Origin: Solwaraspora sp. WMMA2056 | Lineage (GTDB): Bacteria > Actinomycetota > Actinomycetes > Mycobacteriales > Micromonosporaceae | Assembly: GCF_030345095.1 (NCBI RefSeq) | Contig: NZ_CP128360.1 | Location: 2,728,001 to 2,792,000, forward strand | Direction: 5' to 3' | Length of the DNA: 64,000 nucleotides | Shown: one piece after another, positions 35,263-64,000 of the stretch | How positions within the stretch are numbered: the stretch's first letter is position 1 | Layout: every line of letters starts with the position of its first letter | Translations under genes and position numbers: made by a program | The notes under the pieces: model-generated | The model's database searches: none | Told to the model about the DNA's origin: nothing | The model's input: only the letters and a program-made list of their open reading frames with translations

Positions 35263-35981
35263 TGCAGCGGCCTTGTCTCGACGGCCATCATCCGGGTCAG
35301 GGCCTGCGCGGCCCGTTGCTCGACGACGGCGACGGATTCCCCCAGATGCATCGTGAACCTCCGGTGTGCGGTGTCGAGGTCGCCACCGAGGACGGCCTCC
35401 AGGATGCCGAGGTGCTGCGCGATCGTCCGGTCGATCCGCTCGGCGGAGAGGAAGTCGTGCATCCGGACCACCCGGATGCGTTCGTTGACCACGCCGAGCA
35501 TCCCGGCGAGGGCGTTGTTGCCGGTGGCCTCGGCCAGCCGGACGTGGAAGCTCTCGTCGAGCAGCACGAAGCCGGGATCCGGCTCCGGGGTGTCGCGGCG
35601 CAGCACCAGCCAGTCGTCGCGCAGCGGCTCGACGACGGCCGGGTCGTGCGGCTCACCGGTCTCGGCCGGCCGGTGCAGCGCCGCCAGCTCCAAGGCGCGG
35701 CGTACCTCGTACAGTTGCCGGACCTCGACCAGGTTGGACGCCGCCGGTACGTAACCCCCGTCCGGCAGGCGTTCGACGAGGCGCTCGGCGTGCAACCGGG
35801 CCAGGGCCTGGCGGACCGGGGTACGCGAAACCGACAGCAGGGTGGCCAGCCGCTCCTCGCCGAGCCGGATCCGCAGCGGGAAGTCACCGACCAGCAGCCG
35901 CCGCTTCAGCTCGGTGTAGGCGTGCTCACCGGCCTGTGCTCGCGGAGGTGTGTCCAGTCTTGTATCCAACGCCGGATCCAT
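35259..35981 (-). CDS. GntR/FCD-family transcriptional regulator of the BMP importer operon
   Basis: A 240-aa FadR-like regulator. The winged helix is at about 20-85, with recognition helix LSVSRTPVRQALARL. The FCD ligand domain follows, with metal-binding residues in DESFHVRLAEATGN and AQHLGILEAV. The ATG at 35981 was chosen; a longer frame starting from TTG lacks a ribosome site. It is the first gene of the operon and overlaps the ATPase gene by 4 bp, so it most likely represses its own operon until a catabolic ligand binds. Confidence 0.9.
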   Translation of the reverse strand: MDPALDTRLDTPPRAQAGEHAYTELKRRLLVGDFPLRIRLGEERLATLLSVSRTPVRQALARLHAERLVERLPDGGYVPAASNLVEVRQLYEVRRALELAALHRPAETGEPHDPAVVEPLRDDWLVLRRDTPEPDPGFVLLDESFHVRLAEATGNNALAGMLGVVNERIRVVRMHDFLSAERIDRTIAQHLGILEAVLGGDLDTAHRRFTMHLGESVAVVEQRAAQALTRMMAVETRPLQ

Positions 35982-52043: not shown

Positions 52044-52055
52044 ATTGGATCCAAT
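52044..52055. promoter_or_regulatory. Operator palindrome ATTGGATCCAAT (site 1)
   Basis: A perfect 12-bp palindrome 38 bp before the Rieske oxygenase start codon. The same core TTGGATCCAA appears in front of the amine oxidase and the ABC binding-protein genes. The short AT-rich inverted repeat fits a FadR-type GntR operator, so the regulator at 59034 is the probable binder. Confidence 0.8.
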
Positions 52056-52092: not shown

Positions 52093-53472
52093 ATGCTGCG
52101 CCGTGAGGAGAACGAGCGGATCACCCGTTCCGGGCCGGGCACCCCACTCGGGCGGCTGATGCGCGCGTACTGGCAGCCGGCGGCGCTGGTCTCGGAGCTG
52201 GACCCGCAGCGACCGGTCAACCCGGTCCGGCTGCTCGGCGAGGACCTGGTGCTGTTCAAACGTGCCGACGGCGGCTGGGCGCTGGTCGGCCGGTTCTGCG
52301 CGCACCGGGGCGTCGACCTGGCGTACGGCCGGCACGAGGACGGCGGGCTGCGCTGCCTCTACCACGGCTGGCTGTACGGACCGGACGGGCGCTGCCTGGA
52401 ACAGCCGGCCGAGCCACCGCACAGCACCTTCGCCAGCAAGGTCCGCATCCCCAGCTACCCGTGCGTCGAGCGCAACGGGATCATCTTCGCCTACCTCGGC
52501 GAGGGCGACCCGCCGCCGATGCCGCACTACGACTGCTTCCAGGCCCCCGACGAGTACACCTTCGCCTTCAAAGGGCTGTGGGAGTGCAACTGGCTGCAGG
52601 GCGTCGAGGGCGGCATCGACCCCAGCCACGTCTCCTTCCTGCACCGGTTCATCAACGAAGATCCGCGTGACGTCTACGGCCAGCAGTTCAGTGAGGAGGT
52701 CGCCGGCACCGGGCAGAAGCTGTCCAAGCTGGTCGGCGACGCCGACCGGCCGGACATCGAGGTCGAGCAGGCCGAGCACGGCCTGCGGGTGTACGCGTTG
52801 CGCCAGCTCACCGACGAGATCCGGCACGTACGCATCACGAACCTGGTCTTCCCCAACGCGTTCGTGGTGCCGTTCGGCAACAGCAAGGTCTTCTGCCAGT
52901 GGCACGTGCCGATCGACGACCACCACCACTACTGGTACATGATCTTCTACGACTTCGCCGAGCCGACCGACAAGGAGACCCTGCTCGCCCAGCGGCTCGC
53001 CGAGGTCTCCCTGCCGGACTACCGGCCGTTGCGCAACCGGGCCAACAACTGGGGCTTCGACCCGGCCGAGCAGCGCGACCTGACCTACACCGGGATGGGC
53101 CTGGACATCAACGTCCACGACCAGTGGGCGGTGGAGAGCATGGGGCCGATCCAGGACCGCACCGTCGAGCGGCTCGGCGTCTCCGACCGGGCCGTCACCG
53201 CCAACCGTCGGCTGCTGCTGCGCGCCATCGACGCCTTCGAAGCCGGCAACCCGGTCCCGGCCCGCCCCGCCGACGAGACCGCCGCCGCCGCGCTCACCGG
53301 CCCGTTGGCCGTCGACACCGTCGCCCCGACCGACGGTTGGGAACAGACCTGGCGCGACCGTGAGGCACAGCGCCGGGCCGACTCCCCATGGGCCGCCGGC
53401 CGGGCCGAGGTGGCCGGTCCGGTCGGACCGACCGGTGCGACCGGCGGCACCGGGATGGCCGCCGATGCGTAG
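52093..53472 (+). CDS. Rieske non-heme iron oxygenase, alpha subunit (phthalate 4,5-dioxygenase class)
   Basis: Uses a Rieske cluster and mononuclear iron to insert oxygen or to remove N- or O-methyl groups. The cluster ligands are Cys69-x-His71 and Cys88-x2-His91. The iron site is Asp176-x2-His179-x4-His184 (DPSHVSFLH). The 459-aa length and pattern match the phthalate/vanillate/N-demethylase branch, which needs only a separate reductase; none is in the window. The ATG at 52093 has AAGGGG 5-6 bp ahead. Its end overlaps the ligase gene by 8 bp. Confidence 0.93.
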   Translation: MLRREENERITRSGPGTPLGRLMRAYWQPAALVSELDPQRPVNPVRLLGEDLVLFKRADGGWALVGRFCAHRGVDLAYGRHEDGGLRCLYHGWLYGPDGRCLEQPAEPPHSTFASKVRIPSYPCVERNGIIFAYLGEGDPPPMPHYDCFQAPDEYTFAFKGLWECNWLQGVEGGIDPSHVSFLHRFINEDPRDVYGQQFSEEVAGTGQKLSKLVGDADRPDIEVEQAEHGLRVYALRQLTDEIRHVRITNLVFPNAFVVPFGNSKVFCQWHVPIDDHHHYWYMIFYDFAEPTDKETLLAQRLAEVSLPDYRPLRNRANNWGFDPAEQRDLTYTGMGLDINVHDQWAVESMGPIQDRTVERLGVSDRAVTANRRLLLRAIDAFEAGNPVPARPADETAAAALTGPLAVDTVAPTDGWEQTWRDREAQRRADSPWAAGRAEVAGPVGPTGATGGTGMAADA

Positions 53473-54997
53473 CGTCGACGAACGCGCGGTCGCCGACGGC
53501 GGCGACGGGCAGCGTGCGCTGCCGATGCTCGCCGCCGACCGGGGCGGCTTCATCGACCGCCACCAGCTGTGGACCGACGCCCAGTACGCCGCCGCCGGCC
53601 AACTGCGCCGGGTCGTCGACGAGCTGGGCATCGAGCTGATCCGGTTCTCCTTCGCCGACCAGCACGGCGTACTGCGCGGCAAGACGCTGACCCGGGCGGC
53701 GGCCGGCGCGGCCCTGCGCTCCGGGGTGACCGTCCCGTCGTCGCTGCTGCTCAAGGACCCGTCCGGGGCGTCGGTCTTCCCGGTCTTCGCCGCCGACCCG
53801 CAGGTCGGCGTGCCCGGCTTCGCCGGTGCCGGTGACCTGGTGCTGGTGCCGGACCCGACCACGTTCCGGGTGCTGCCGTGGGCGCAGCGGACCGGCTGGG
53901 TGCTGTGCGACCTGCGACTGCCGGACGGCTCGCCGGTGCCGCTGTGCACCCGCAGCCTGTTGCGCGGTCAGCTCGGCCGGCTGGCCGCCGCCGGGTACGC
54001 GATGACCGTCGGCGTGGAGCTGGAGTTCCACGTGTTCGCCGCCGACGCCCGCCCCGACGGCGGACTCGACGCCGACCAGGTGGGCCGCCCCGCCGCGCCC
54101 GGTCGGCCCAGCGTGGTGCGGCCGGTCAGCCGGGGCGCGCAGCTGCTGCACGAGGACGGCCTGGACCGCGCCGACGACCTCGTCCAGCTGCTGCACCACG
54201 GGCTGACCCGGCTCGACCTGCCGCTGCGGTCACTGGAGCTGGAGTTCGGGCCGAGCCAGTTCGAGATCACCCTGACCGCCGGGGACGCCGCCGACGCCGC
54301 CGACCAGGTGCTGCTGGCCCGCTCGGCGATCCGCCAGCTGTGTCGCCGGCACGGCTACCACGCCACGTTCATGTCCCGGCCGGCCGGTGCCGAGACCGCC
54401 TCCACCGGCTGGCACCTGCACCAGTCGCTGCGCGCTGTCGACTCCGGCGCGGCGGTCTTCGACCCGACCACACCGGGCGAGGCGCTCTCGCCGGTCGCCG
54501 GGCACTACCTGGCCGGGCTGCTGGAGCACGCCGGCGCGGCCGCCGCGTTCGCCACCCCGACGGTCAACGGCTACAAGCGCTACCTGCCGTTCTCGCTCGC
54601 CCCGGACCGGGTGGTGTGGGGGATCGACAACAAAGGGGCCATGGTGCGGGCCGTCGGTGCCGGCTCCGACACCGGCGTACGGCTGGAGAACCGCTGCGGC
54701 GAGCCGGCCGCCAACCCGTACCTCTACATCGCCTCGCAGCTGATCAGCGGCCTGGACGGGATCGAGCGGCGACTCGCCCCACCCCCTGCGGTGGAGGATC
54801 CGTACGCGGCCGACGCGCCCCGGCTGCCGACCTCGTTGGCCGAGGCGTTGACCGCGTTGGCGGCCGATCCGGCGTTCGCCGCCGCCCTCGGCGACCCGGT
54901 GGTCTCCTGGTACCTGACGCTCAAGCGCCGTGAGTTCGCCCGTTACCTCGCGTACGTCTCCGACTGGGAGCAGCGCGAGTACTTCGATCTGATCTGA
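53465..54997 (+). CDS. Glutamine-synthetase-family gamma-glutamyl ligase
   Basis: A 510-aa glutamine synthetase homologue, longer than true GlnA and without its adenylylation region. The metal motif VGVELEFHVF is at about 182-191, LEFGPSQFEIT at 260-270, and the ATP-site motifs NGYKRY and LENRCGEPAANPYLYIA follow. Members outside nitrogen assimilation (PuuA, IpuC, AtdA1) attach glutamate to an amine. Overlap with the Rieske gene and the amine enzymes around it support such a role. The last six codons are duplicated after the stop. Confidence 0.9.
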   Translation: MRSVDERAVADGGDGQRALPMLAADRGGFIDRHQLWTDAQYAAAGQLRRVVDELGIELIRFSFADQHGVLRGKTLTRAAAGAALRSGVTVPSSLLLKDPSGASVFPVFAADPQVGVPGFAGAGDLVLVPDPTTFRVLPWAQRTGWVLCDLRLPDGSPVPLCTRSLLRGQLGRLAAAGYAMTVGVELEFHVFAADARPDGGLDADQVGRPAAPGRPSVVRPVSRGAQLLHEDGLDRADDLVQLLHHGLTRLDLPLRSLELEFGPSQFEITLTAGDAADAADQVLLARSAIRQLCRRHGYHATFMSRPAGAETASTGWHLHQSLRAVDSGAAVFDPTTPGEALSPVAGHYLAGLLEHAGAAAAFATPTVNGYKRYLPFSLAPDRVVWGIDNKGAMVRAVGAGSDTGVRLENRCGEPAANPYLYIASQLISGLDGIERRLAPPPAVEDPYAADAPRLPTSLAEALTALAADPAFAAALGDPVVSWYLTLKRREFARYLAYVSDWEQREYFDLI

Positions 54998-55020
54998 CCG
55001 CGAGTACTTCGACCTGATCT
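54974..55020 (+). repeat. 22-bp tandem duplication at a gene end
   Basis: CGCGAGTACTTCGATCTGAT plus CT at 54974-54995 is repeated at 54999-55020 with one mismatch. The first copy encodes the ligase C-terminus (REYFDLI) and the stop. The second copy lies in the spacer and would encode the same residues again before a second stop (TAG at 55020-55022). It resembles the repeat at 25658. Confidence 0.9.
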
Positions 55021-55034
55021 AGAAGGAGCCGTCG

Positions 55035-56489
55035 ATGCCGTCATCCGTCGCCCCGCTGGCCGAGCTGGAGCCGTTCCACGTCGACGGCGAGTGGATCGCG
55101 CCGGGGCAGCGCACCCTGATCGAGGTGCGGGACCCGTCGGACGGTGCGGTGATCAGCCGGGTCGCCCAGGCCACCGCCGACGACGTGGCCGCCGCCGTGG
55201 CCGCCGCCACCCGGGCGTACGCCGACCGGCGCTGGAGCGGGCTGGCCCCGTTGGAGCGCACCCGGGTGCTGCACCGGCTGGCCGACCTGATCGAGGCGCA
55301 CCTCGAAGAGCTGGCGGTGCTGGAGACCCGGGACAATGGCAAGCCGATCGAGCGGTCCCGGGCGGACACCGGCGCGGCGGCCCGCGCCTTCCGGCACTTC
55401 GCCGGGGCCACCAGCCGGCTCACCGGCACGGTGGTGCCGATCGACGGCGGTGCCCACCACGTCTACACGGTGCTGGAGCCGGTCGGCGTCGCGGCGCTGA
55501 TCCTGCCGTGGAACTTCCCGATCATGACCGGCAGCTTCAAGATCGCTCCGGCGCTGGCCGCCGGCTGCCCGATCGTGGTCAAACCGGCCGAACAGACCCC
55601 GCTGACCATGCTGCGGCTGGCGGCGCTGGCCGCCGAGGCCGGCGTACCGCCGGGGGTCTTCAACGTGCTGACCGGCGACGGTGAGGTCGGCGCGGCCCTG
55701 GTGGCCCACCCCGGCGTGGCGAAGGTGTCGTTCACCGGGTCCACCGAGGTGGGCCGGGTGGTGATGGCCGGCGCGGCGCCGACGATGAAGCGGCTCACCC
55801 TGGAGCTGGGCGGCAAGAGCCCGAACATCGTCTTCGCCGACGCCGACCTGGACGCCGCCGTGCTGACCGCGATGCGGGCGTCGTTCGGCCACTCCGGCCA
55901 GATGTGCACCGCCGGCAGCCGGCTGCTGGTGCAACGTTCCATCCTGGACGAGATGACCGAGCGGCTGGCCGAGGCGACCCGCCGGGTGCCGGTCGGCAAC
56001 GGTCTCGACGGCGGGGTGACCGTCGGCCCACTGGTCTCCGAGGAGCAGCGGCAGCAGGTGCTGTCCTACATCGAGACCGGCATCCGGGAGGGCGCCACGG
56101 TCGCCGTCGGCGGCGGGGTGCCGGACCGGCCCGGCTACTTCGTCGAGCCGACCCTGTTCACCGGGGTCCGCAACGACATGGTCATCGCCCGGGAGGAGAT
56201 CTTCGGGCCGGTGACCGGGGTGATCGCCTTCGACGACGAGGACGAGGCCGTCGCGATCGGCAACGACACGGCGTACGGGCTGGCGGCCGGGGTGTGGACC
56301 CGGGACCTGTCCCGCGCCCACCGGATGGCCGCCGCGCTGCGGGTCGGCACGGTCTGGGTGAACACGTACAACATCTTCGACCCGGCGCTGTCCTTCGGCG
56401 GGGTCGGTGACTCCGGTCTGGGCCGGGACCTGGGCGACGACGCCCTGTACTCGTACTGCGAACGCAAGGGCGTCGTGGTCGCGCTCTGA
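55035..56489 (+). CDS. NAD(P)-dependent aldehyde dehydrogenase
   Basis: A 484-aa ALDH of the betaine/aminobutyraldehyde dehydrogenase type, oxidising an aldehyde to the acid in the cytoplasm. Catalytic Cys291 is in GQMCTAGSR and the general base Glu257 in LELGGKSP. The cofactor loop is FTGSTEVGR. Coupled closely to the ligase (37 bp) with AGAAGGAG ahead of the ATG. It probably takes the aldehyde released by the amine oxidase or the flavoenzyme of this cluster. Confidence 0.95.
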   Translation: MPSSVAPLAELEPFHVDGEWIAPGQRTLIEVRDPSDGAVISRVAQATADDVAAAVAAATRAYADRRWSGLAPLERTRVLHRLADLIEAHLEELAVLETRDNGKPIERSRADTGAAARAFRHFAGATSRLTGTVVPIDGGAHHVYTVLEPVGVAALILPWNFPIMTGSFKIAPALAAGCPIVVKPAEQTPLTMLRLAALAAEAGVPPGVFNVLTGDGEVGAALVAHPGVAKVSFTGSTEVGRVVMAGAAPTMKRLTLELGGKSPNIVFADADLDAAVLTAMRASFGHSGQMCTAGSRLLVQRSILDEMTERLAEATRRVPVGNGLDGGVTVGPLVSEEQRQQVLSYIETGIREGATVAVGGGVPDRPGYFVEPTLFTGVRNDMVIAREEIFGPVTGVIAFDDEDEAVAIGNDTAYGLAAGVWTRDLSRAHRMAAALRVGTVWVNTYNIFDPALSFGGVGDSGLGRDLGDDALYSYCERKGVVVAL

Positions 56490-56548
56490 CCGGCGGTGCC
56501 GGCACCGGTCGACCGCTGCGGCCGGTACGGGCACCGCCCTGAACACTG

Positions 56549-59098
56549 ATGGGATCCACTTTGACAGACACCGCATCCCAGATCGGCGTTCGCTCCGCCC
56601 TGGACGTCGCCGCCCTGCGCGCCGCCACCCCCGGTGCGGCCCTGGCGCACCACCTCAACTCCGCCGGTGCCGCTCTGCCCAGCCTCACCGTGCTCGACAC
56701 GGTCATCGCCCACCTGCGGCTGGAGTCCCGCCTCGGCGGCTACGAGGCCGCCGAGGCCGCCGGCGAGCGAACCGCCCAGGTGTACCAGCTCGTCGCCGAT
56801 CTCATTGGCGCCTCCGCCGCCGACATCGCCCTGGTGGAGAGCGCCACCGTCGCCTGGCACCGGGCGATCGACGCGCTGCGGCTGCAGGCCGGGGACCGGA
56901 TCCTCGCCTCGGCGTCCAGCTACGTCAGCTCGGCGCTGCACCTGCTCGAACTGCGCCGCACCCGGGGCATCGTCGTCGAGGTGCTGCCCACCGACGACTC
57001 CGGCGGTGTCGACCTGTACCAGCTGGAGCAGGCCCTGCGCCGACCGGCGGCGCTGGTCACGGTGGCCCACGTACCGACCTCGTCGGCGTTGATCGAGCCC
57101 GTCGCACAGGTCGGCGCCCTGTCTGCCGCCGCCGGGGTGCCGCTGCTGGTCGACGCGACCCAGTCGGTGGGTCAACTGCCGGTCGACGTACGGGCGATGC
57201 GGGCCGGCATCGTGGTCGCCACCGGCCGCAAGTTCCTGCGGGGTCCGCGCGGCACCGGGCTGCTCTACCTCGACCCGGCGCTGCACGAGCAGGCCCGCCC
57301 ACTGACCCCGGACGTACGGGGTGCCCGGTGGACCAGCGACGAGGAGTACGACCTGCTGCCCGGCGCGCGACGCTACGAGACCTGGGAAGCGTCGCACGCG
57401 TTGCGGCTCGGTCTGGGCGCCGCCCTCACCGAGGCGCTCGCCATCGGCGTCGACGTGATCTCGGCGTACGTCAGCGGGTTGGCCGCCCGGTTGCGCGCCG
57501 GCCTGGCCGGGCTCGCCGGGGTGCGGGTGGTCGACCCGCCGGCGGCCGGCGGCGGCATCGTCACGTTCGTCCGCGACGGCGAGGAACCGGCACAGACGGT
57601 ACGCACCCTACGGGCCGCCGGCCTGCACCTGGTCGCCGTGCCGGCCAGCCACGGGCAGTGGGACCTGGGTCGACGCGGCCTGCCGGCCGTGGTCCGCGCC
57701 TCGGTGCACGTCTACAACGACGACAGTGACATCGACGCGCTGCTCACCCAGCTGGCCCGCCCGGTCCCGCCCGCCGCCGGGCAGGTGACGACGCCCGAAC
57801 CGGCGCCGCCGTCGCCGGTCGTCGCCCCGCCCCCCGGCCCCAGCTCCGGCACCCTTGCCACCGGTGCCGCCCCTGCCCTGGTCACCGGCACCGACCGGCA
57901 CGCCGACGTGGTGGTGGTCGGCGCCGGCATCCACGGCCGCAGCGCCGCCTGGTCGCTGGCCGCCCGGGGGGTCCGGGTGGTGCAGCTCGACCGGCACCCG
58001 GCCGACCACACCGACGGCTCGTCGCACGGGCGGACCCGGATGATCCGGCGCGCCTACCCGTCGCCGGTCTGGGACGACCTGGTGCAGCGGGCGTACACCG
58101 GCTGGCACGAGCTGGAGCAGGCCGCCGATCGCCGGTTGGTCACCACCGTCGGTGGGCTCTACGCCCGGCCGGCCCGGTCCAGCGGCACGCTGCGGGGCCC
58201 GGGGTGCATGCTGGTCGACGCCAACCAGGCCGCCGGAATCCTGCCCGGCCTGGTCCTCGGCGCCGACATGGTCGCCGTCCACGACCCGGCGGCGGGCGTC
58301 ATCGACGCGGCAGCCGCGATGTCGGCGCTGGCCGCGCTCGGTGCCGCCGCCGGGGTGGACCGCCGGGACGGTTGCGCCGTCACCGGCTGGCACCCCGACG
58401 GTGCCGGGGTCCGGGTGCGCACCGACGACGGTGACCTGCTCGCCGACCGGCTGGTGATCTGCGCCGGCCCGTGGACCGCCGATCTGGTGCCGGATCTCGC
58501 CGGCCAACTCTCCGTCGTACGGATCGTCAACATCCACATCGGCTCGTCGTCCCCGGCGCTGCTGGCCCCGCCGGCGCTCGGCCCCTTCTCGGTGGAGGTC
58601 CCCGGCGTCGGGCTGCTCTACGGCATCCCGGCGTACGGCCCGGACACGGTCAAGGTCGGCTTCGACCACGGGCCCGTCGACGACCTCACCCGGCCGCCCG
58701 GGCCGGTCACCGCCGCCGAGCGCGACGCGTTGCTCACCGTCGCGCGCCGGTTCCTGCCGGCCGCCGACGGCCCGGTCACCGCCGAGGTGGCCTGCCGCTA
58801 CACGATGGCGCCGGGCAACCGGTTCGCGGTCGGGGCGCTGCCGGCGCATCCGCAGGTCCTGCTGGCGGCGGCCTGCTCCGGGCACGGGTTCAAGTTCGGC
58901 CCGGCGATCGGCGCGGCGCTGGCCGACCTGGCCACCGGGGTGCCCCGGTCGGACCTGGACTTCCTCGCCCCGGCGGCGATGGGCGTGGCCGGGATCGTGC
59001 CCGGCGACCCGGACGGTCCCGGCCCCGACCCGGTCACCCCCGGAACACCGTCGCCGACCGCCGCTCGTACCAGCGAGCCAACTGCTCACCGGCGCTGA
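56549..59098 (+). CDS. Fusion of class V aminotransferase and sarcosine-oxidase-like FAD enzyme
   Basis: An 849-aa two-enzyme protein. Residues 1-405 are a PLP fold-type I class V domain like isopenicillin-N epimerase or cysteine desulfurase, with Asp202 (VDATQS) and PLP Lys228 (GRKFLRGPRGTG). A Pro-rich linker spans 405-450. Residues 451-830 are a DAO-family flavoenzyme of the MSOX/SolA type: GAGIHG (458-463), SSHGRTRMIRRAY, and Cys749 (ACRYTM), the probable covalent flavin attachment. No stop or frame break separates the parts. I know no characterised enzyme with this fusion. Its 3' end overlaps the convergent GntR gene by 65 bp. Confidence 0.92.
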   Translation: MGSTLTDTASQIGVRSALDVAALRAATPGAALAHHLNSAGAALPSLTVLDTVIAHLRLESRLGGYEAAEAAGERTAQVYQLVADLIGASAADIALVESATVAWHRAIDALRLQAGDRILASASSYVSSALHLLELRRTRGIVVEVLPTDDSGGVDLYQLEQALRRPAALVTVAHVPTSSALIEPVAQVGALSAAAGVPLLVDATQSVGQLPVDVRAMRAGIVVATGRKFLRGPRGTGLLYLDPALHEQARPLTPDVRGARWTSDEEYDLLPGARRYETWEASHALRLGLGAALTEALAIGVDVISAYVSGLAARLRAGLAGLAGVRVVDPPAAGGGIVTFVRDGEEPAQTVRTLRAAGLHLVAVPASHGQWDLGRRGLPAVVRASVHVYNDDSDIDALLTQLARPVPPAAGQVTTPEPAPPSPVVAPPPGPSSGTLATGAAPALVTGTDRHADVVVVGAGIHGRSAAWSLAARGVRVVQLDRHPADHTDGSSHGRTRMIRRAYPSPVWDDLVQRAYTGWHELEQAADRRLVTTVGGLYARPARSSGTLRGPGCMLVDANQAAGILPGLVLGADMVAVHDPAAGVIDAAAAMSALAALGAAAGVDRRDGCAVTGWHPDGAGVRVRTDDGDLLADRLVICAGPWTADLVPDLAGQLSVVRIVNIHIGSSSPALLAPPALGPFSVEVPGVGLLYGIPAYGPDTVKVGFDHGPVDDLTRPPGPVTAAERDALLTVARRFLPAADGPVTAEVACRYTMAPGNRFAVGALPAHPQVLLAAACSGHGFKFGPAIGAALADLATGVPRSDLDFLAPAAMGVAGIVPGDPDGPGPDPVTPGTPSPTAARTSEPTAHRR

Positions 59099-59789
59099 TC
59101 ACATGGGCCTGCATCTCGCGTCGGGCGCGCTCACCGTCCTCTTCGGCCAGCGCCGCGATGATCCGCTCGTGCTCGTGGAAGTTGTCGTCGCGGTGCCGGG
59201 GGTTGTCCTGCAGCACCAGCGCGGAGACGTTGCGCGGGAACGCCTCGTTGATCTCCTTGATCACCCGGGCCAGCCAGTCGTTGCCGGCGACCTGGTGGAT
59301 CAGGGTGTGGAACCGGTCGTTCGCGGCGTTGGTCGACGTCGCCAGGGCCAGCCTGGCGCGGGCGACCCCCGGGTCGTCCTCGACCCGTCGTTGCGGGATG
59401 TTGCCCCGGGCCGCCTGCTCGGTGCGACGCAGCAACGAGTTGGCCGCCCGCAGCTCGTCGAGGACGTCGTCGGTGATCCGGCTGACCGCCCGCTCGCAGG
59501 CCAGCGCCTCGAGCTCGGCGCGGACCTCGTAGGCCTCGCGGACCTCCCAGGGCGCCGGCACCCGCACCACCGCGCCCCGGTGCGGCACCACCTCGATCAG
59601 CCCACCGGTCTGCAACTGCCGCAGCGCCTCGCGGACCGGGGTCCGGCTGACGCCGAGCAGCTTGGCCAGTTCCGCCTGACGCAGCTGGGCACCGATCGGG
59701 ATCTCGCCAGACATGATCTTGGCGCGGATGGCGGCGGCGGTGGCGTCGACGAGGGCACTGCTGGTCGTTTCCGTCGAGCTGACTGGCAT
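59034..59789 (-). CDS. GntR/FCD-family regulator of the amine cluster
   Basis: A 251-aa FadR-like regulator. Winged helix at about 12-80 (LLGVSRTPVREALRQLQTGG) and FCD ligand domain at 100-235, with metal-type residues in NDRFHTLIHQVAGND and HEHERIIAALAEED. The ATG at 59789 was chosen; upstream frame has no homology. It sits inside the cluster, divergent from the amine oxidase gene, and a double TTGGATCC operator lies in the shared promoter region. Most likely a repressor relieved by an amine or its acid. Confidence 0.93.
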   Translation of the reverse strand: MPVSSTETTSSALVDATAAAIRAKIMSGEIPIGAQLRQAELAKLLGVSRTPVREALRQLQTGGLIEVVPHRGAVVRVPAPWEVREAYEVRAELEALACERAVSRITDDVLDELRAANSLLRRTEQAARGNIPQRRVEDDPGVARARLALATSTNAANDRFHTLIHQVAGNDWLARVIKEINEAFPRNVSALVLQDNPRHRDDNFHEHERIIAALAEEDGERARREMQAHVISAGEQLARWYERRSATVFRG

Positions 59790-59926
59790 GCCCGGTGCCC
59801 CTGTCTGATCGGTGTACGGCGTAGCCGGCCGGACGTCCGGCCGGCTGCCATCGCCTCCACAGTGGTGCGATGTGGGTGTCACGATAGCAAGCCCGCCCGG
59901 AGAGCTGCGGGTCCCGTACATTTGCC

Positions 59927-59951
59927 TTTGGATCCCGGTTTTGGATCCAAA
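59927..59951. promoter_or_regulatory. Double operator: TTTGGATCCC and TTTGGATCCAAA (sites 2a, 2b)
   Basis: A perfect 12-bp palindrome at 59940-59951 and an imperfect copy at 59927-59936, with centres 13-14 bp apart. They lie between the GntR and amine oxidase genes. A -10-like TAGTAT (59961-59966) lies 15-16 bp after the palindrome half, so binding would cover the -35 region of the oxidase promoter. Confidence 0.8.
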
Positions 59952-59959
59952 CATCCTGC

Positions 59960-59978
59960 GGTAGTATCCGAGACTACC
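59960..59978. promoter_or_regulatory. Inverted repeat GGTAGT-N7-ACTACC
   Basis: Perfect 6-bp arms immediately after the double operator and overlapping the putative -10 element of the amine oxidase promoter. It could be a second regulator site or the first hairpin of the message. About 119 bp of leader remain before the GTG start; nothing else was recognised there. Confidence 0.35.
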
Positions 59979-60097
59979 TTGGCCAGGGAGTTTTCCGGAA
60001 GCACCGGCCCGCCGCAGCCGCACCGACCCCGACGCAGACCGACCCAGGCGAGCCGGACCACCCCGGGACGACTCCCGCGACGGCGACAGGAGCAACC

Positions 60098-62074
60098 GTG
60101 AGTGCCTGCCACCCCACCCCGGACGCACGGACCCACCGCAGCCACCCGCTCGACCCGCCGAGCCCGGCGGAGATCGCCCGTGCCGTGGCGGCCGCCCGCG
60201 CCGATGGCCGGCTCGGCGAGCGGACCCGCTACTGGGGCGCCACGCTGGACGAAGCCCACGCCCGTGCCGTCGCCACCGGGGCCGCCGCTGCCGGCGAGGT
60301 CCGCATCGGGCTGGTGGCCATGGACCACGCCGCCGGCACCGCCTGGGAGATCGACGTCGCGTTGACTGCAGGAACGGACGGCGCCGCCGACCGGTGCCTC
60401 GACTGGCGTCCGCTCGACCCACGCCGGCCGGGCATCACCTCCGAGGAGGCCCGCGCCGCCGCCCAGGCCTGCCGGCAGAGCCCGCTGTTCCGTGAGGTGC
60501 TCGCCAAGCGGGGCATCCACGACGTCTCCCTGGTCATGGTCGACGCCGAGTCGATGGGCGGCTTCGAGCCGAAGCGCTACGCCGACCGTCGGCTGACCTG
60601 GGGCACCGTCTGGCACCGGGTCGACGAGGGCGACAACGGCTACGTCCGCCCGGTGCAGGGCGTGGTGCCGATCATCGACATGGCCACCATGGAGGTGCTG
60701 GAGGTCGAGGACCACGGGGTGGTCCCGATCTCGGACGAGGCCGGCCCGCTGGAGGCGGCGGCCTGGCCGACCCGACCCGGCCTCAAGCCGCTGGACGTGG
60801 TGCAGCCCGACGGGCCCAGCTTCGACGTCGACGGCTGGCAGGTCAGCTGGCAGGGCTGGCGGCTGCGGGTCGGGTTCACCCACCGGGAGGGCCTGGTCCT
60901 GCACGACCTGGAGTTCCAGGGGCGACCGGTGGTCAAGCGGGCCGCCTGCAACGAGATGTACGTGCCGTACCTGGACCCCAACTCCACCCAGTACCGCAAG
61001 AACTTCTTCGACTGGGGCGAGTACGGTGCCGGACCACTGACCAACTCGCTGGCCCTGGGCTGCGACTGCCTCGGCGTCATCTACTACTTCGACACCGCCT
61101 ACCTCGGCGGCGACGGCGACCCGGTGACCATCCCGAACGCGATCTGCATGCACGAGGAGGACCACAGCGTCCTCTGGAAGCACAACGACCTGCGCCGTGG
61201 GGTCAGCCAGGTGCGTCGCTCCCGGCGACTGGTGATCTCGAACTTCCAGACGGTGGCCAACTACGACTACGGCTTCTACTGGTCGCTGTACCAGGACGGC
61301 CGCATCGAGCTGGAGGTCAAGCTCACCGGCATGCTCTCCGCCTCCGGCATTCACGACGGCGACGAGGTGCGCTACGGCCGGGTCGTCGCACCGAACGTGC
61401 AGACCCCCACCCACCAGCACTACTTCGGGCTGCGCCTGGACATGGCGGTGGACGGGCCGCACAACCGCCTCGTCGAGGAGCATGCCGAGGGGGAGACCGA
61501 TCCGGCGCTCGACCCGTACGGCAACGCGGTGCGCAACGTGCGGACCCCGCTGCTGCGCGAGTCGCAGGCCGCGCGGCGCACCGACCCGGCGACCGCGCGG
61601 CGCTGGCGGGTGGAGAGCGCCACCCGGACCAACCGGTACGGTGAACCGACCGCCTACCGGCTGCTGTTGCCGAACACCACCCGGTCGTTCGCCCGGCCCG
61701 ATTCGGTGATGGCCCGCCGGGCACCGTTCATCCATCAGCATCTGTGGGCCACGCCGTACGACCCGAGCGAGCAGTTCCTCGGCGGCCAGTACCCCAACCA
61801 CGCCGAGCCCGGCTCCGACGGGGTCCAGGTCTGGCAGCGTCAGGACCGGTCGATCGACGGCACCGAGTTGGTGCTCTGGCCGGTGCTCGGCACCCACCAC
61901 TTCCCCCGCCCGGAGCAGTGGCCGGTGATGCCGGTGGACGCCATCCACATGATCCTGGAGCCGGACGGCTTCTTCGACCGCAATCCGGCGATGGACGTGC
62001 CGGATCCGGCGGCGGCGCGGGGCACCGCGGACGCCTGCTGCGCGACCGACTCTGACGTGGTGCCGGCCGACTGA
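60098..62074 (+). CDS. Copper-containing primary-amine oxidase (TPQ enzyme)
   Basis: Oxidises a primary amine to aldehyde with release of ammonia and hydrogen peroxide. The 658-aa protein has the cofactor site TVANYDY with Tyr389 as TPQ precursor, catalytic base Asp305 (FFDWGEY), and copper ligands His439, His441 (HQH) and His600/601 (THHFPRP). The spacing equals that of Arthrobacter phenylethylamine/histamine oxidases, which prefer aromatic amines. No signal peptide, so cytoplasmic. GTG start with AGGAG ahead. Followed by the ABC binding-protein gene. Confidence 0.97.
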   Translation: MSACHPTPDARTHRSHPLDPPSPAEIARAVAAARADGRLGERTRYWGATLDEAHARAVATGAAAAGEVRIGLVAMDHAAGTAWEIDVALTAGTDGAADRCLDWRPLDPRRPGITSEEARAAAQACRQSPLFREVLAKRGIHDVSLVMVDAESMGGFEPKRYADRRLTWGTVWHRVDEGDNGYVRPVQGVVPIIDMATMEVLEVEDHGVVPISDEAGPLEAAAWPTRPGLKPLDVVQPDGPSFDVDGWQVSWQGWRLRVGFTHREGLVLHDLEFQGRPVVKRAACNEMYVPYLDPNSTQYRKNFFDWGEYGAGPLTNSLALGCDCLGVIYYFDTAYLGGDGDPVTIPNAICMHEEDHSVLWKHNDLRRGVSQVRRSRRLVISNFQTVANYDYGFYWSLYQDGRIELEVKLTGMLSASGIHDGDEVRYGRVVAPNVQTPTHQHYFGLRLDMAVDGPHNRLVEEHAEGETDPALDPYGNAVRNVRTPLLRESQAARRTDPATARRWRVESATRTNRYGEPTAYRLLLPNTTRSFARPDSVMARRAPFIHQHLWATPYDPSEQFLGGQYPNHAEPGSDGVQVWQRQDRSIDGTELVLWPVLGTHHFPRPEQWPVMPVDAIHMILEPDGFFDRNPAMDVPDPAAARGTADACCATDSDVVPAD

Positions 62075-62196
62075 CGGCCGGTACGCCGGCCGCCAGTCGA
62101 CCGGCCACGGGGAAATATCCACATTAGCCCGAGCGTCCGGAAATCAGACGTTCACAATCGCGATACGGTCCCGAATTGGGTACCGCAGATCATGGT

Positions 62197-62208
62197 TTTG
62201 GATCCAAT
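62197..62208. promoter_or_regulatory. Operator palindrome TTTGGATCCAAT (site 3)
   Basis: Core TTGGATCCAA at 62198-62207, about 52 bp before the ABC binding-protein start. Surrounding DNA is unusually AT-rich for this genome (TGATGAAATTTAATCC), as expected for a promoter. This is the third promoter of the cluster with the same palindrome. Confidence 0.8.
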
Positions 62209-62259
62209 CCTGATGAAATTTAATCCATCTTCGTCCCATACCCTGCCGAGGAGCGCACT

Positions 62260-63906
62260 ATGTCGGACGATTTCCGCAATCTTCCACAGAACCTGATATC
62301 CCGTCGCGCGATGCTGCGCGGCGCCGGCCTGCTCGGCCTCGGCTTCGGCGCCAGCAGCCTGCTCGCGGCCTGTGGCGTCGCGTCTGACGGCAACGACGAC
62401 GGCGACGACAGCGGCACCACCGGCGGCACCCTGACCCTCGGGATCGACGCCACCAGCGCCGTCAACGACCCCGCTTTCTACACCTCGCTCGGTGACTGGA
62501 TGGCCGTCGACTGCATCTGCCGGGGCCTGACCTTCATCTCGTTCGAGACCACCGAGCCGCAGGCCGACCTGGCCGAGAGCTGGGAAATCTCCGACGACGG
62601 ACTGACCTACACGTTCACCCTGCGCCAGGGGGTGACCTTCCACGACGGCAACACCTTCACCTCCGCCGACGTGCTGGCCAGTCTCGGCCGGCAGTTCAAC
62701 GCCGACGACCCGACCCTGCCCGACGGTGCCTCCCGGCCGTTGAACAGCCTCGGCGCCAACGTCGCCTCGCTCGACGCCCCCGACGAGTACACCGTGGTGA
62801 TGGTGCTCAACACCCCCGACGCGACGGTGCTCAACCGGCTGTCCGACATCGGTGGGCGGATCATCTCCAAGGCCGCCCTCGACGAGTACGGCGCCGACAT
62901 CGGCAAGAACCTCGTCGGCACCGGGCCGTTCAAGTTCTCCTCGGCGACCGCCGGCCAGCAGGTGGTGCTGACCGCGTTCGACGACTACCGCACCGGCCGT
63001 CCCAAGGTCGACCGGTTGGTGCTGCAGCAGGTGCAGGACCCGTCGACGATCGTGAGCTCGCTGCTCAGCGGCGACCTGTCCGCCACCCAGTTCACCCCGT
63101 ACTCGGCGATCGAACAGCTGAAGGCCGACGACGCGGTGACCTTCCACGAGACGCCGTACAGCTTCGACGCCATGATGATGATCGACGCCCGGCGGATCCC
63201 GGAGCTGGAGGTGCGCCAGGCCATCAACCTGGCGATCGACCGGGAAGCGATCATCGCCCAGGCGTTCTTCGGCATCGCGGCCCTGCCCGAGGGATACACC
63301 ATCCCGCCGTCGCAGAACGGCTACGACCCGAGCCTGGCCGACCTGAGCCGGTTCGACCCCGACGAGGCCCGCCGGCTGATCGAGGCCGCCGGTGCCACCG
63401 GTCGTGAGGTCGCCCTGATGGCCGCCAGCGACTCGTGGCACCCGCGTGCCGCCCAGATCGTCGCGCAGAACCTCACCGACATCGGGCTGACCGTGGTCAC
63501 CGACTCGGTCGACCCGGCCACCTACTTCAGCCGGCTGCTCGACCCGGACGACCCGTTCCACGAGCTGATGATCTGGGAACGCAACTCCTACATCCCGGAC
63601 CCGGACAACATGATCGGCGCGATGGGGATGCCGTCCGGTGTGTACGGCGACTTCACCTCCGGGTTCAAGACCCTGCCCGGGTCGGAGGCGTTCGCCGCCG
63701 ACCTGGCCGCGGCGAAGAACCTGCCCAACGGCGACGAGCGCACCGCCGCGTACACCGACATCCAGCGTCGCTTCGCCGAGCAGTACATGGTGCTGTCGAT
63801 GCTCTGCTACTCGGCCAACCCGGTGGTCACCGGCGCCAACGTCGAAGGTGCCAACGTCGCCGCGCTCGGCAGCCACCGCTGCTTCATGGAGAACGCCAGT
63901 GTCTGA
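62260..63906 (+). CDS. ABC transporter substrate-binding lipoprotein, oligopeptide/nickel family 5
   Basis: A 548-aa family 5 solute-binding protein. It starts with a twin-arginine-like signal (SRRAMLRGAG) and a lipobox ending LLAAC, so it is probably exported and lipid-anchored. The mature protein has typical motifs: LAESWEISDDGLTYTFTLRQ, GTGPFKF and RQAINLAIDREAI. Such proteins bind peptides but also amines, opines and glycosides. Controlled by the operator before it. The permease gene follows at the window edge. Confidence 0.95.
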   Translation: MSDDFRNLPQNLISRRAMLRGAGLLGLGFGASSLLAACGVASDGNDDGDDSGTTGGTLTLGIDATSAVNDPAFYTSLGDWMAVDCICRGLTFISFETTEPQADLAESWEISDDGLTYTFTLRQGVTFHDGNTFTSADVLASLGRQFNADDPTLPDGASRPLNSLGANVASLDAPDEYTVVMVLNTPDATVLNRLSDIGGRIISKAALDEYGADIGKNLVGTGPFKFSSATAGQQVVLTAFDDYRTGRPKVDRLVLQQVQDPSTIVSSLLSGDLSATQFTPYSAIEQLKADDAVTFHETPYSFDAMMMIDARRIPELEVRQAINLAIDREAIIAQAFFGIAALPEGYTIPPSQNGYDPSLADLSRFDPDEARRLIEAAGATGREVALMAASDSWHPRAAQIVAQNLTDIGLTVVTDSVDPATYFSRLLDPDDPFHELMIWERNSYIPDPDNMIGAMGMPSGVYGDFTSGFKTLPGSEAFAADLAAAKNLPNGDERTAAYTDIQRRFAEQYMVLSMLCYSANPVVTGANVEGANVAALGSHRCFMENASV

Positions 63907-63936
63907 GTCCACCCCCTCGGCCCGTCCGGGGGAGCA

Positions 63937-64000
63937 GTGACGGTCGCAGGGGCGCGGCCGGTCGGGCGATGGAGAGCCGGCTACGCCCGGCGCTCCATCG
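63937..64000 (+). CDS. Start of the next gene, probable ABC permease (cut by window edge)
   Basis: A GTG at 63937 preceded by GGGGGAG opens a frame that runs to the window edge with 21 residues (VTVAGARPVGRWRAGYARRS and one more). A basic N-terminus after a binding-protein gene is what an oligopeptide permease would show. Only position and ribosome site support it. Confidence 0.5.
   Translation, partial: MTVAGARPVGRWRAGYARRSI

Follow-up and report, generated by a model that had tools for sequence, protein, structure and literature searches.

A conserved actinomycete gene unit with a glutamate-amine ligase and a Rieske oxygenase that probably act on an acidic aromatic amine

Gene content, operator and conservation of the unit

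The window analysed here is a stretch of 64,000 nucleotides from Solwaraspora sp. WMMA2056 (contig NZ_CP128360.1, positions 2,728,001-2,792,000 of a single-contig genome of 7,010,427 bases, or 7.01 Mb). Near its end begins a unit of about 21 kb, with 17 genes when a gene fusion is counted as one, which runs from 52093 to about 73004 and has internal gaps of at most 308 bases. Coordinates beyond the window are given in an extended numbering that joins it to the downstream locus L003, so that L003:13028 is 73028. Judged from its genes, this unit probably imports a nitrogen-rich compound and removes the amino group of an acidic aromatic ring after tagging it with glutamate.

The first gene encodes a Rieske oxygenase alpha subunit of the LigXa_C type, from the group linked to ligases that resemble glutamine synthetase (GS) (52093-53472, plus strand; Pfam Rieske and LigXa_C). 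Its end overlaps by 8 bases the gene of a GS-like glutamate-amine ligase of the GoaS class (53465-54997, plus; Gln-synt_C). An aldehyde dehydrogenase (ALDH; 55035-56489, plus; Aldedh) and a fusion of an EgtE-like class-V aminotransferase fold with a DAO flavoenzyme (56549-59098, plus; Aminotran_5 and DAO) follow. A GntR/FCD regulator assigned by Pfam, presumed to be a repressor, lies on the minus strand (59034-59789) with an operator in its upstream gap, and is succeeded by a copper/topaquinone (TPQ) amine oxidase with the TPQ motif NYDY (60098-62074, plus; Cu_amine_oxid) and a peptide-type ATP-binding cassette (ABC) binding protein (62260-63906, plus; SBP_bac_5). The original prediction had described these genes as packed together, and Pfam found each of the enzymes it named at 52093-63906.

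Of the permease and ATPase genes, the window includes no more than the opening bases of OppC. The OppC permease (63937-64806, plus, of which the window holds 63937-64000) is followed by OppB (about 64815-65855), an alpha/beta hydrolase (65863-66555), OppD (about 66576-67595) and OppF (67592-68599). The unit then continues with an amidohydrolase-2 (about 68593-69360), a cytidine-deaminase-like protein (about 69354-69812), a member of the creatininase family (about 69943-70704), a cyclase/kynurenine-formamidase-like protein (70791-71423) and a gamma-glutamyltransferase (GGT; 71442-73004).

The exact palindrome TTGGATCCAA stands upstream of the Rieske gene (52045-52054), between gntR and the amine oxidase gene, tpq (59941-59950), and between tpq and the binding-protein gene, sbp (62198-62207). 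These three exact copies in the window, each in an intergenic gap, bear out the shared operator that had been predicted. With one mismatch allowed, the window contains four matches against 0.22 expected, a count reached in none of 100 shuffles; an operator-like site with one mismatch, TTGTATCCAA, lies elsewhere in the window at 35960-35969. Across the whole genome there are four exact copies, against about 0.9 expected from base composition. The fourth was dropped from consideration, as it overlaps frames without a meaningful family match (best model 26.6 bits, cut-off 236), and the part of the unit in L003 has no further operator even when one mismatch is allowed. The operator is nearly private to the unit, and the GntR protein would repress the promoters through it until a substrate or metabolite binds.

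The limits of the unit were drawn by tblastn of all frames of at least 100 residues against Paractinoplanes tereljensis and P. toevensis. Matches span the Rieske gene to GGT in the window's order, while no flanking frame of the neighbouring genes had a Paractinoplanes match above 45% identity; the P. toevensis copy is split between two contigs, with the break inside the amine oxidase gene. After GGT, at 73028-76596 (L003:13028-16596), stand an Old-yellow-enzyme-type oxidoreductase and an amidohydrolase-3, which were rejected as members since neither has a match above 45% identity at the relatives' loci.

Sixteen genes, from the Rieske gene to the cyclase gene, occur in identical order in all six same-genus genomes, whose 20-kb stretches end before GGT, and the same 16 are in order in two genomes of the same family, G032 and G015. 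The Rieske orthologue (at least 83% identity) and the fusion mark an identical set of 9 genomes among 61, counting that of the window, and a draw of 396 genomes across the phylum yielded three with a Rieske match at E <=1e-130, again with the window's own. Acrocarpospora catenulata, from another genus, has ALDH, the fusion, gntR, the TPQ oxidase, the Rieske gene and the ligase side by side in altered order. The 13.7-kb locus analysed has a contig end within ALDH as one of its limits, and it contains none of the transporter and hydrolase genes. Of the block genes, amidohydrolase-2 and GGT were searched for in the whole genome: no close amidohydrolase-2 turned up (best 34 bits), and a GGT, 54% identical, is on another contig. 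The frame that follows the gene set is presumably citrate-synthase-like. This content suggests a core of six genes.

The operator is conserved along with the genes. All three places hold exact sites in the six same-genus clusters and in G015, and two of the three, before the Rieske gene and in the tpq/sbp gap, do so in G032 and both Paractinoplanes. One-mismatch copies occupy the gntR/tpq gap in both Paractinoplanes and in Acrocarpospora, where no exact operator was found and each of two matching gaps has a one-mismatch site. In G015 the operator also occurs a fourth time in exact form, immediately before the fusion gene (L047:14338); at the corresponding position both Paractinoplanes carry TGGGATCCAA, which differs from it by one mismatch.

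At the level of sequence, then, the synteny of the unit is conserved. The claim of a jointly organised amine-catabolic unit with uptake is upheld, and the genomic side of the test proposed with it, conservation of the gene set elsewhere, was passed in same-genus genomes and in other genera. It might still be argued that these are amine-salvage genes that lack a common substrate and have come under one repressor for the scavenging of nitrogen. The TPQ oxidase, ALDH, GGT and Opp do belong to broad families that act on many amines, and the ligase NpaA1, described below, accepts many aryl amines (PMC11335346). However, an identical order and operator over several genera point to one route, and we consider the salvage explanation quite unlikely.

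A ligase and Rieske pair of the arylamine type

The nearest solved structure to the ligase is NpaA1 (8wwu, 435.7 bits; the next scores 192.3). NpaA1 attaches glutamate to 1-naphthylamine and anilines, which a Rieske dioxygenase then attacks (PMC11335346). Our ligase shows 44.9% identity to NpaA1 and 42-51% to the GoaS-type rows that are not close relatives of it; the figures are 32% for IpuC, 27% for PuuA and 32% for GlnA of its own genome (of two GlnA paralogues, the one in the alignment). E232 and E234 are kept. It falls in the GoaS class, being closer to the NpaA1 type than to true glutamine synthetase. Among the three GS-family proteins of the genome its Pfam score is well below those of the other two. 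Against NCBIfam GGputSyn it scores 244 bits, below the cut-off of 650, and an aliphatic-amine ligase of the IpuC/PuuA type was rejected on the low identities. The E. coli PuuA/PuuB/PuuC putrescine route proceeds by a similar logic, with glutamylation first, then oxidation by a flavoenzyme and then that of the aldehyde, but its ligase is the distant PuuA and it has no Rieske enzyme.

The 1-naphthylamine and chloroaniline-type systems offer the closer parallel, as their GS-like ligase glutamylates an arylamine ahead of a Rieske dioxygenase. Four such ligases are 44.5-47.9% identical to ours, with AtdA1 and TdnQ outside the comparison; the ligase of Delftia pLME1 we take to be DcaQ. Unlike the present pair, these systems have alpha and beta Rieske subunits and a glutamine-amidotransferase gene between ligase and oxygenase, and their ligases have Phe or Val at position 75, where Lys is found here. 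By homology, the ligase would activate the aryl-NH2 and thereby allow the Rieske enzyme to attack the ring, with loss of the nitrogen. The original prediction saw in it a possible protecting step; homology to the NpaA1 and sad systems argues for activation instead.

Among solved structures, the Rieske protein matches 9ina (244.6 bits) and 7fjl (210.8 bits) best, and phthalate-type dioxygenases occupy the range of 245-200 bits. The first is the entry code cited in a paper on isophthalate dioxygenase (IPDO; PMC12445078), and the second is a phthalate dioxygenase (PMC12445004); both are LigXa-type Rieske proteins, as is ours. The Arg matching IPDO R234 is kept here, while H257 is replaced by Gln (by our reading of the alignment against PMC12445078, with a deduced numbering offset). 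IPDO was assayed with its reductase alone (PMC12445078). Our protein has the motifs HVRITN, QWHVPID and DINVHDQW, the last of which is lacking from 9ina and 7fjl in the alignments.

These matches bear on the pathway first proposed for the cluster, in which an N-methylated or aralkyl amine is imported, demethylated by the Rieske and flavin enzymes, deaminated by the copper oxidase and oxidised as the aldehyde, with the ligase in its protective role. The DAO half of the fusion is of the sarcosine-oxidase/N-methyltryptophan-oxidase type, and the demethylase NdmA does appear among the Rieske matches. It does so at 65 bits, however, far behind the phthalate-type dioxygenases, and the close relatives of the Rieske protein travel with arylamine-type ligases; our ligase, moreover, is distant from IpuC and PuuA. 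An N-demethylase of the NdmA type was rejected as the identity of the Rieske protein, whose nearest solved relatives are phthalate-type dioxygenases, and we judge the demethylation pathway quite unlikely. Its proposal that the copper oxidase deaminates and ALDH then oxidises the product is reasonable.

A search of 72,556 plasmids with the Rieske protein, at a threshold of 1e-60, gave 31 matches. Thirteen are 45-55% identical, and every one of them has a GoaS-type ligase within about 6.5 kb; the remaining 18 reach at most 39.4% identity. The GoaS matches compared were the best 40 of 64 and 60 of 242 records, and the 18 weaker Rieske records lie outside those 40. A distant pair also occurs in G158 and G413, with identities of 65-69% for the Rieske protein and about 48% for the ligase; in the 19.5-kb stretch of G158, genes for an adenosine monophosphate (AMP)-ligase, two ALDH and a thioesterase lie at least about 7 kb away and do not reveal the substrate.

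One of the 13 pairs belongs to Novosphingobium resinovorum SA1, where a maleylacetate reductase gene lies about 2 kb from it. This strain degrades sulfanilate (PMC6167471, PMC5632844). Its Rieske protein and ligase are 51.8% and 47.3% identical to ours, and the pair shares the Rieske motifs and Lys75. From phenotype and gene context we infer that it is the sulfanilate dioxygenase of SA1, the SadA and SadB sequences being outside the comparison. In Hydrogenophaga PBC, the first step of sulfanilate degradation is encoded by the sad operon, with sadA for the dioxygenase, a 4-aminobenzenesulfonate 3,4-dioxygenase, and sadB for a glutamine synthetase (PMC5632844). Like the sad operon, our unit places a LigXa-type Rieske gene next to a GS-like ligase, with no beta subunit. 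Unlike sad-type systems, it has no identified ferredoxin or reductase beside the pair, which is embedded with the TPQ oxidase, ALDH, the aminotransferase-DAO fusion, the Opp importer and the hydrolases. Since no ferredoxin or reductase of its own was identified, we class it as working like a sad operon and not as one.

Among the nine proteobacterial pairs with gene tables, ferredoxin and flavin adenine dinucleotide (FAD) oxidoreductase genes lie near six, flavodoxin and FAD oxidoreductase near two, and neither within 7.4 kb of one. The Palleronia pair has pca-type genes within 1 kb. Three proteobacterial pairs (L051, L052 and L058) stand beside nitroreductase and DUF4863 genes, as if nitro-aromatic acids were reduced to amines beforehand. 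In Palleronia (L056:3978-5663) and Pseudooceanicola (L060:16819-18492) the cluster motifs CPHRG and FHGW are on a separate small protein, and the alpha protein has a Rieske-like N-terminus without them; a two-protein Rieske oxygenase is possible there.

The Nitratireductor plasmid pOM-1 (L057:2821-28330) holds the pair with creatininase, cytosine deaminase, FAD oxidoreductase, Rid, ureidoglycolate lyase and hydantoinase genes, perhaps an N-heterocycle route, and the Pseudooceanicola pair stands with ureidoglycolate lyase and hydantoinase/oxoprolinase genes. Such company, and the cytidine-deaminase-like, creatininase-family and cyclase genes within our own unit, would suit a pair that acts not on an aniline but on an N-heteroaromatic acid with a pyridine- or pterin-like ring, which the deaminase, creatininase and cyclase would open. 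We regard this as unlikely. The sole function-tested relative that we traced acts on sulfanilate (PMC5632844), Acrocarpospora has no amidohydrolase-2 orthologue within the limits of the search given above, and the neighbours on the marine plasmids may be there by chance.

The ligases and Rieske proteins of this group carry a co-signature. Docking indicates that Phe75 in the aryl pocket of NpaA1 helps to hold the arene (PMC11335346). The corresponding residue is Lys in 27 of 27 ligases linked to this Rieske type (13 plasmid, 14 actinomycete) and in 0 of 11 other GS-family rows, which have Phe (6), Val, His, Trp, Met or a gap; these 11 were chosen by us from a part of the 64 plasmid records (nine matches), with PuuA and one GlnA paralogue of the genome, which has a gap at the position. 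In the Rieske proteins, the motifs D[IL]N[VI]HDQW, HVR[IV]TN and QWHVP[IV]D occur at 26 of 26 linked loci and at none of seven others. The seven are four alpha/beta Rieske systems, two LigXa-type Rieske genes with no GoaS match in 15-19 kb (L049 and L050), and L079, which cannot show the last motif because its Rieske gene is cut at the locus end. The trees of the two proteins both recover the window's group and a Cupriavidus-Polaromonas-Caballeronia group, disagree on Nitratireductor and leave several forks open. Lys75 may pair with a carboxylate or sulfonate of the substrate. Both marks were defined in this analysis and not taken from published work, and the co-signature is new here.

Accessory enzymes and a proposed route

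The TPQ oxidase has phenylethylamine oxidase (1rjo, 432.9 bits) as its nearest solved structure and exceeds the cut-off of the primary-amine oxidase model PRK11504 (735.8 against 651 bits). It resembles that enzyme (AGAO, presumably of Arthrobacter) in being a TPQ amine oxidase, and differs in standing beside an arylamine-type ligase and a Rieske gene. The TPQ motif is present in 10 of 11 related clusters, the eleventh being cut before it. For ALDH, the best NCBIfam models are betaine-aldehyde dehydrogenase (534 bits, cut-off 669) and phenylacetaldehyde dehydrogenase StyD (518 bits, cut-off 800), both below threshold.

The fusion is one open frame in G015 too. Its DAO half is of the monomeric sarcosine oxidase or N-methyltryptophan oxidase type and scores 243.5 bits against N-methyltryptophan oxidase PRK11259, just under the cut-off of 257. 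It keeps what we take to be key residues of monomeric sarcosine oxidase, the Cys that binds flavin and the Arg and Lys that bind the carboxylate. Motifs for the Cys and the Lys are found in all 11 related clusters, as is the aminotransferase motif GRKFLRGP, while the Arg pattern as written is found in eight and misses G015 (translation HGHIRMIRRAY) and both Paractinoplanes. The retention of the Cys, Arg and Lys motifs suggests an alpha-amino-acid-like substrate for the DAO half. An EgtE-like C-S lyase role for the aminotransferase half was rejected (TIGR04343, 165.7 bits, cut-off 400).

The binding protein is nearest to a solved peptide ABC binding protein (8upi, 162.6 bits) and then to AgaA (6hlx, 138.9 bits). 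In NCBIfam the deaminase-like protein (94 bits, cut-off 131), the creatininase (139, cut-off 235) and the cyclase (124, cut-off 223) all score below threshold; in Pfam the creatininase and cyclase pass and the deaminase-like protein falls short (20.8 of 25). The amidohydrolase was set aside as a relative of 4-sulfomuconolactone hydrolase, having just 22.6 bits.

On balance, we lean towards a catabolic regulon under GntR control, whose substrate would be an amine-bearing compound with an acidic aromatic amine in it. Gene content, operator, synteny and the families of ligase and Rieske protein are the part of this reading drawn directly from sequence. The Opp-type system would import a peptide-like or conjugated compound, which the hydrolases and GGT would trim. 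The TPQ oxidase and ALDH could convert a primary-amine side chain to a carboxylate, that is, to an acid fitting the ligase pocket. The ligase-Rieske pair would then probably glutamylate and dioxygenate the acidic aromatic amine: the GS-like ligase would couple glutamate to the ring NH2 while the Lys at NpaA1 position 75 grips the acid group, and dioxygenation of the resulting glutamyl arylamine by the Rieske enzyme would expel the nitrogen and yield a catechol acid, for instance protocatechuate. For the aminotransferase-DAO fusion, oxidation of an intermediate of the alpha-amino-acid type is the probable role.

The catechol acid would be opened by the protocatechuate route of the genome, where both subunits of protocatechuate 3,4-dioxygenase, PcaH and PcaG, score over the cut-off; beside them, a PcaB match cut by the locus end reaches 328 bits (cut-off 356). 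No HpaD over the cut-off was found in the genome (best 47 bits, cut-off 321), so that protocatechuate is a better guess than the homoprotocatechuate route, which was rejected on this ground. In a bolder reading, taken up below, the aromatic-amine part would be a 4-aminobenzoate- or 4-aminophenylacetate-like unit, perhaps inside a pterin- or nucleoside-aminobenzoyl conjugate; folate- or amicetin-like conjugates are an idea from gene content alone.

Several points weigh against the regulon as we have drawn it. Pfam identified no ferredoxin or reductase gene at 52093-73004, and no plant-type ferredoxin Cys pattern occurs in its six frames, unlike the six of nine proteobacterial pairs that have both partners nearby. 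No ring-cleavage gene is among those identified in the unit, and the TPQ oxidase, the fusion and the hydrolases have no fixed place in the scheme. We know of no common natural 4-aminobenzylamine-like substrate. As for the co-signature, the Rieske motifs were picked from an alignment containing 15 of the 26 loci, and on the tree the Lys trait appears as one change with weak support (30/32; 34% of bootstrap trees). It looks like one deep split, and the counts of 27 and 11 are therefore not independent.

A relative of a pair known from pollutant degraders, in a chromosomal setting

The original prediction held that no described pathway combines these enzymes. This stands for the whole set, of which no report was found in the one library of open-licence literature searched, and does not stand for the ligase-Rieske half, which is of an already described kind. 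More tentatively, the unit could be a complete natural route for a compound that combines an aminoalkyl end with an aromatic amine of acidic or latent-acid character. It would then illustrate the type of native background out of which sulfanilate dioxygenases were recruited, and the Lys-for-Phe swap would set acidic against neutral arylamines across the GoaS class. A similar pair is known from degraders of dye pollutants. Our analysis finds a relative of that pair on actinomycete chromosomes, in several genera and in an operator-linked context, which makes an inducer screen a direct test. The co-signature is a candidate rule that may predict which GS-like ligases serve acidic arylamines and with what kind of oxygenase.

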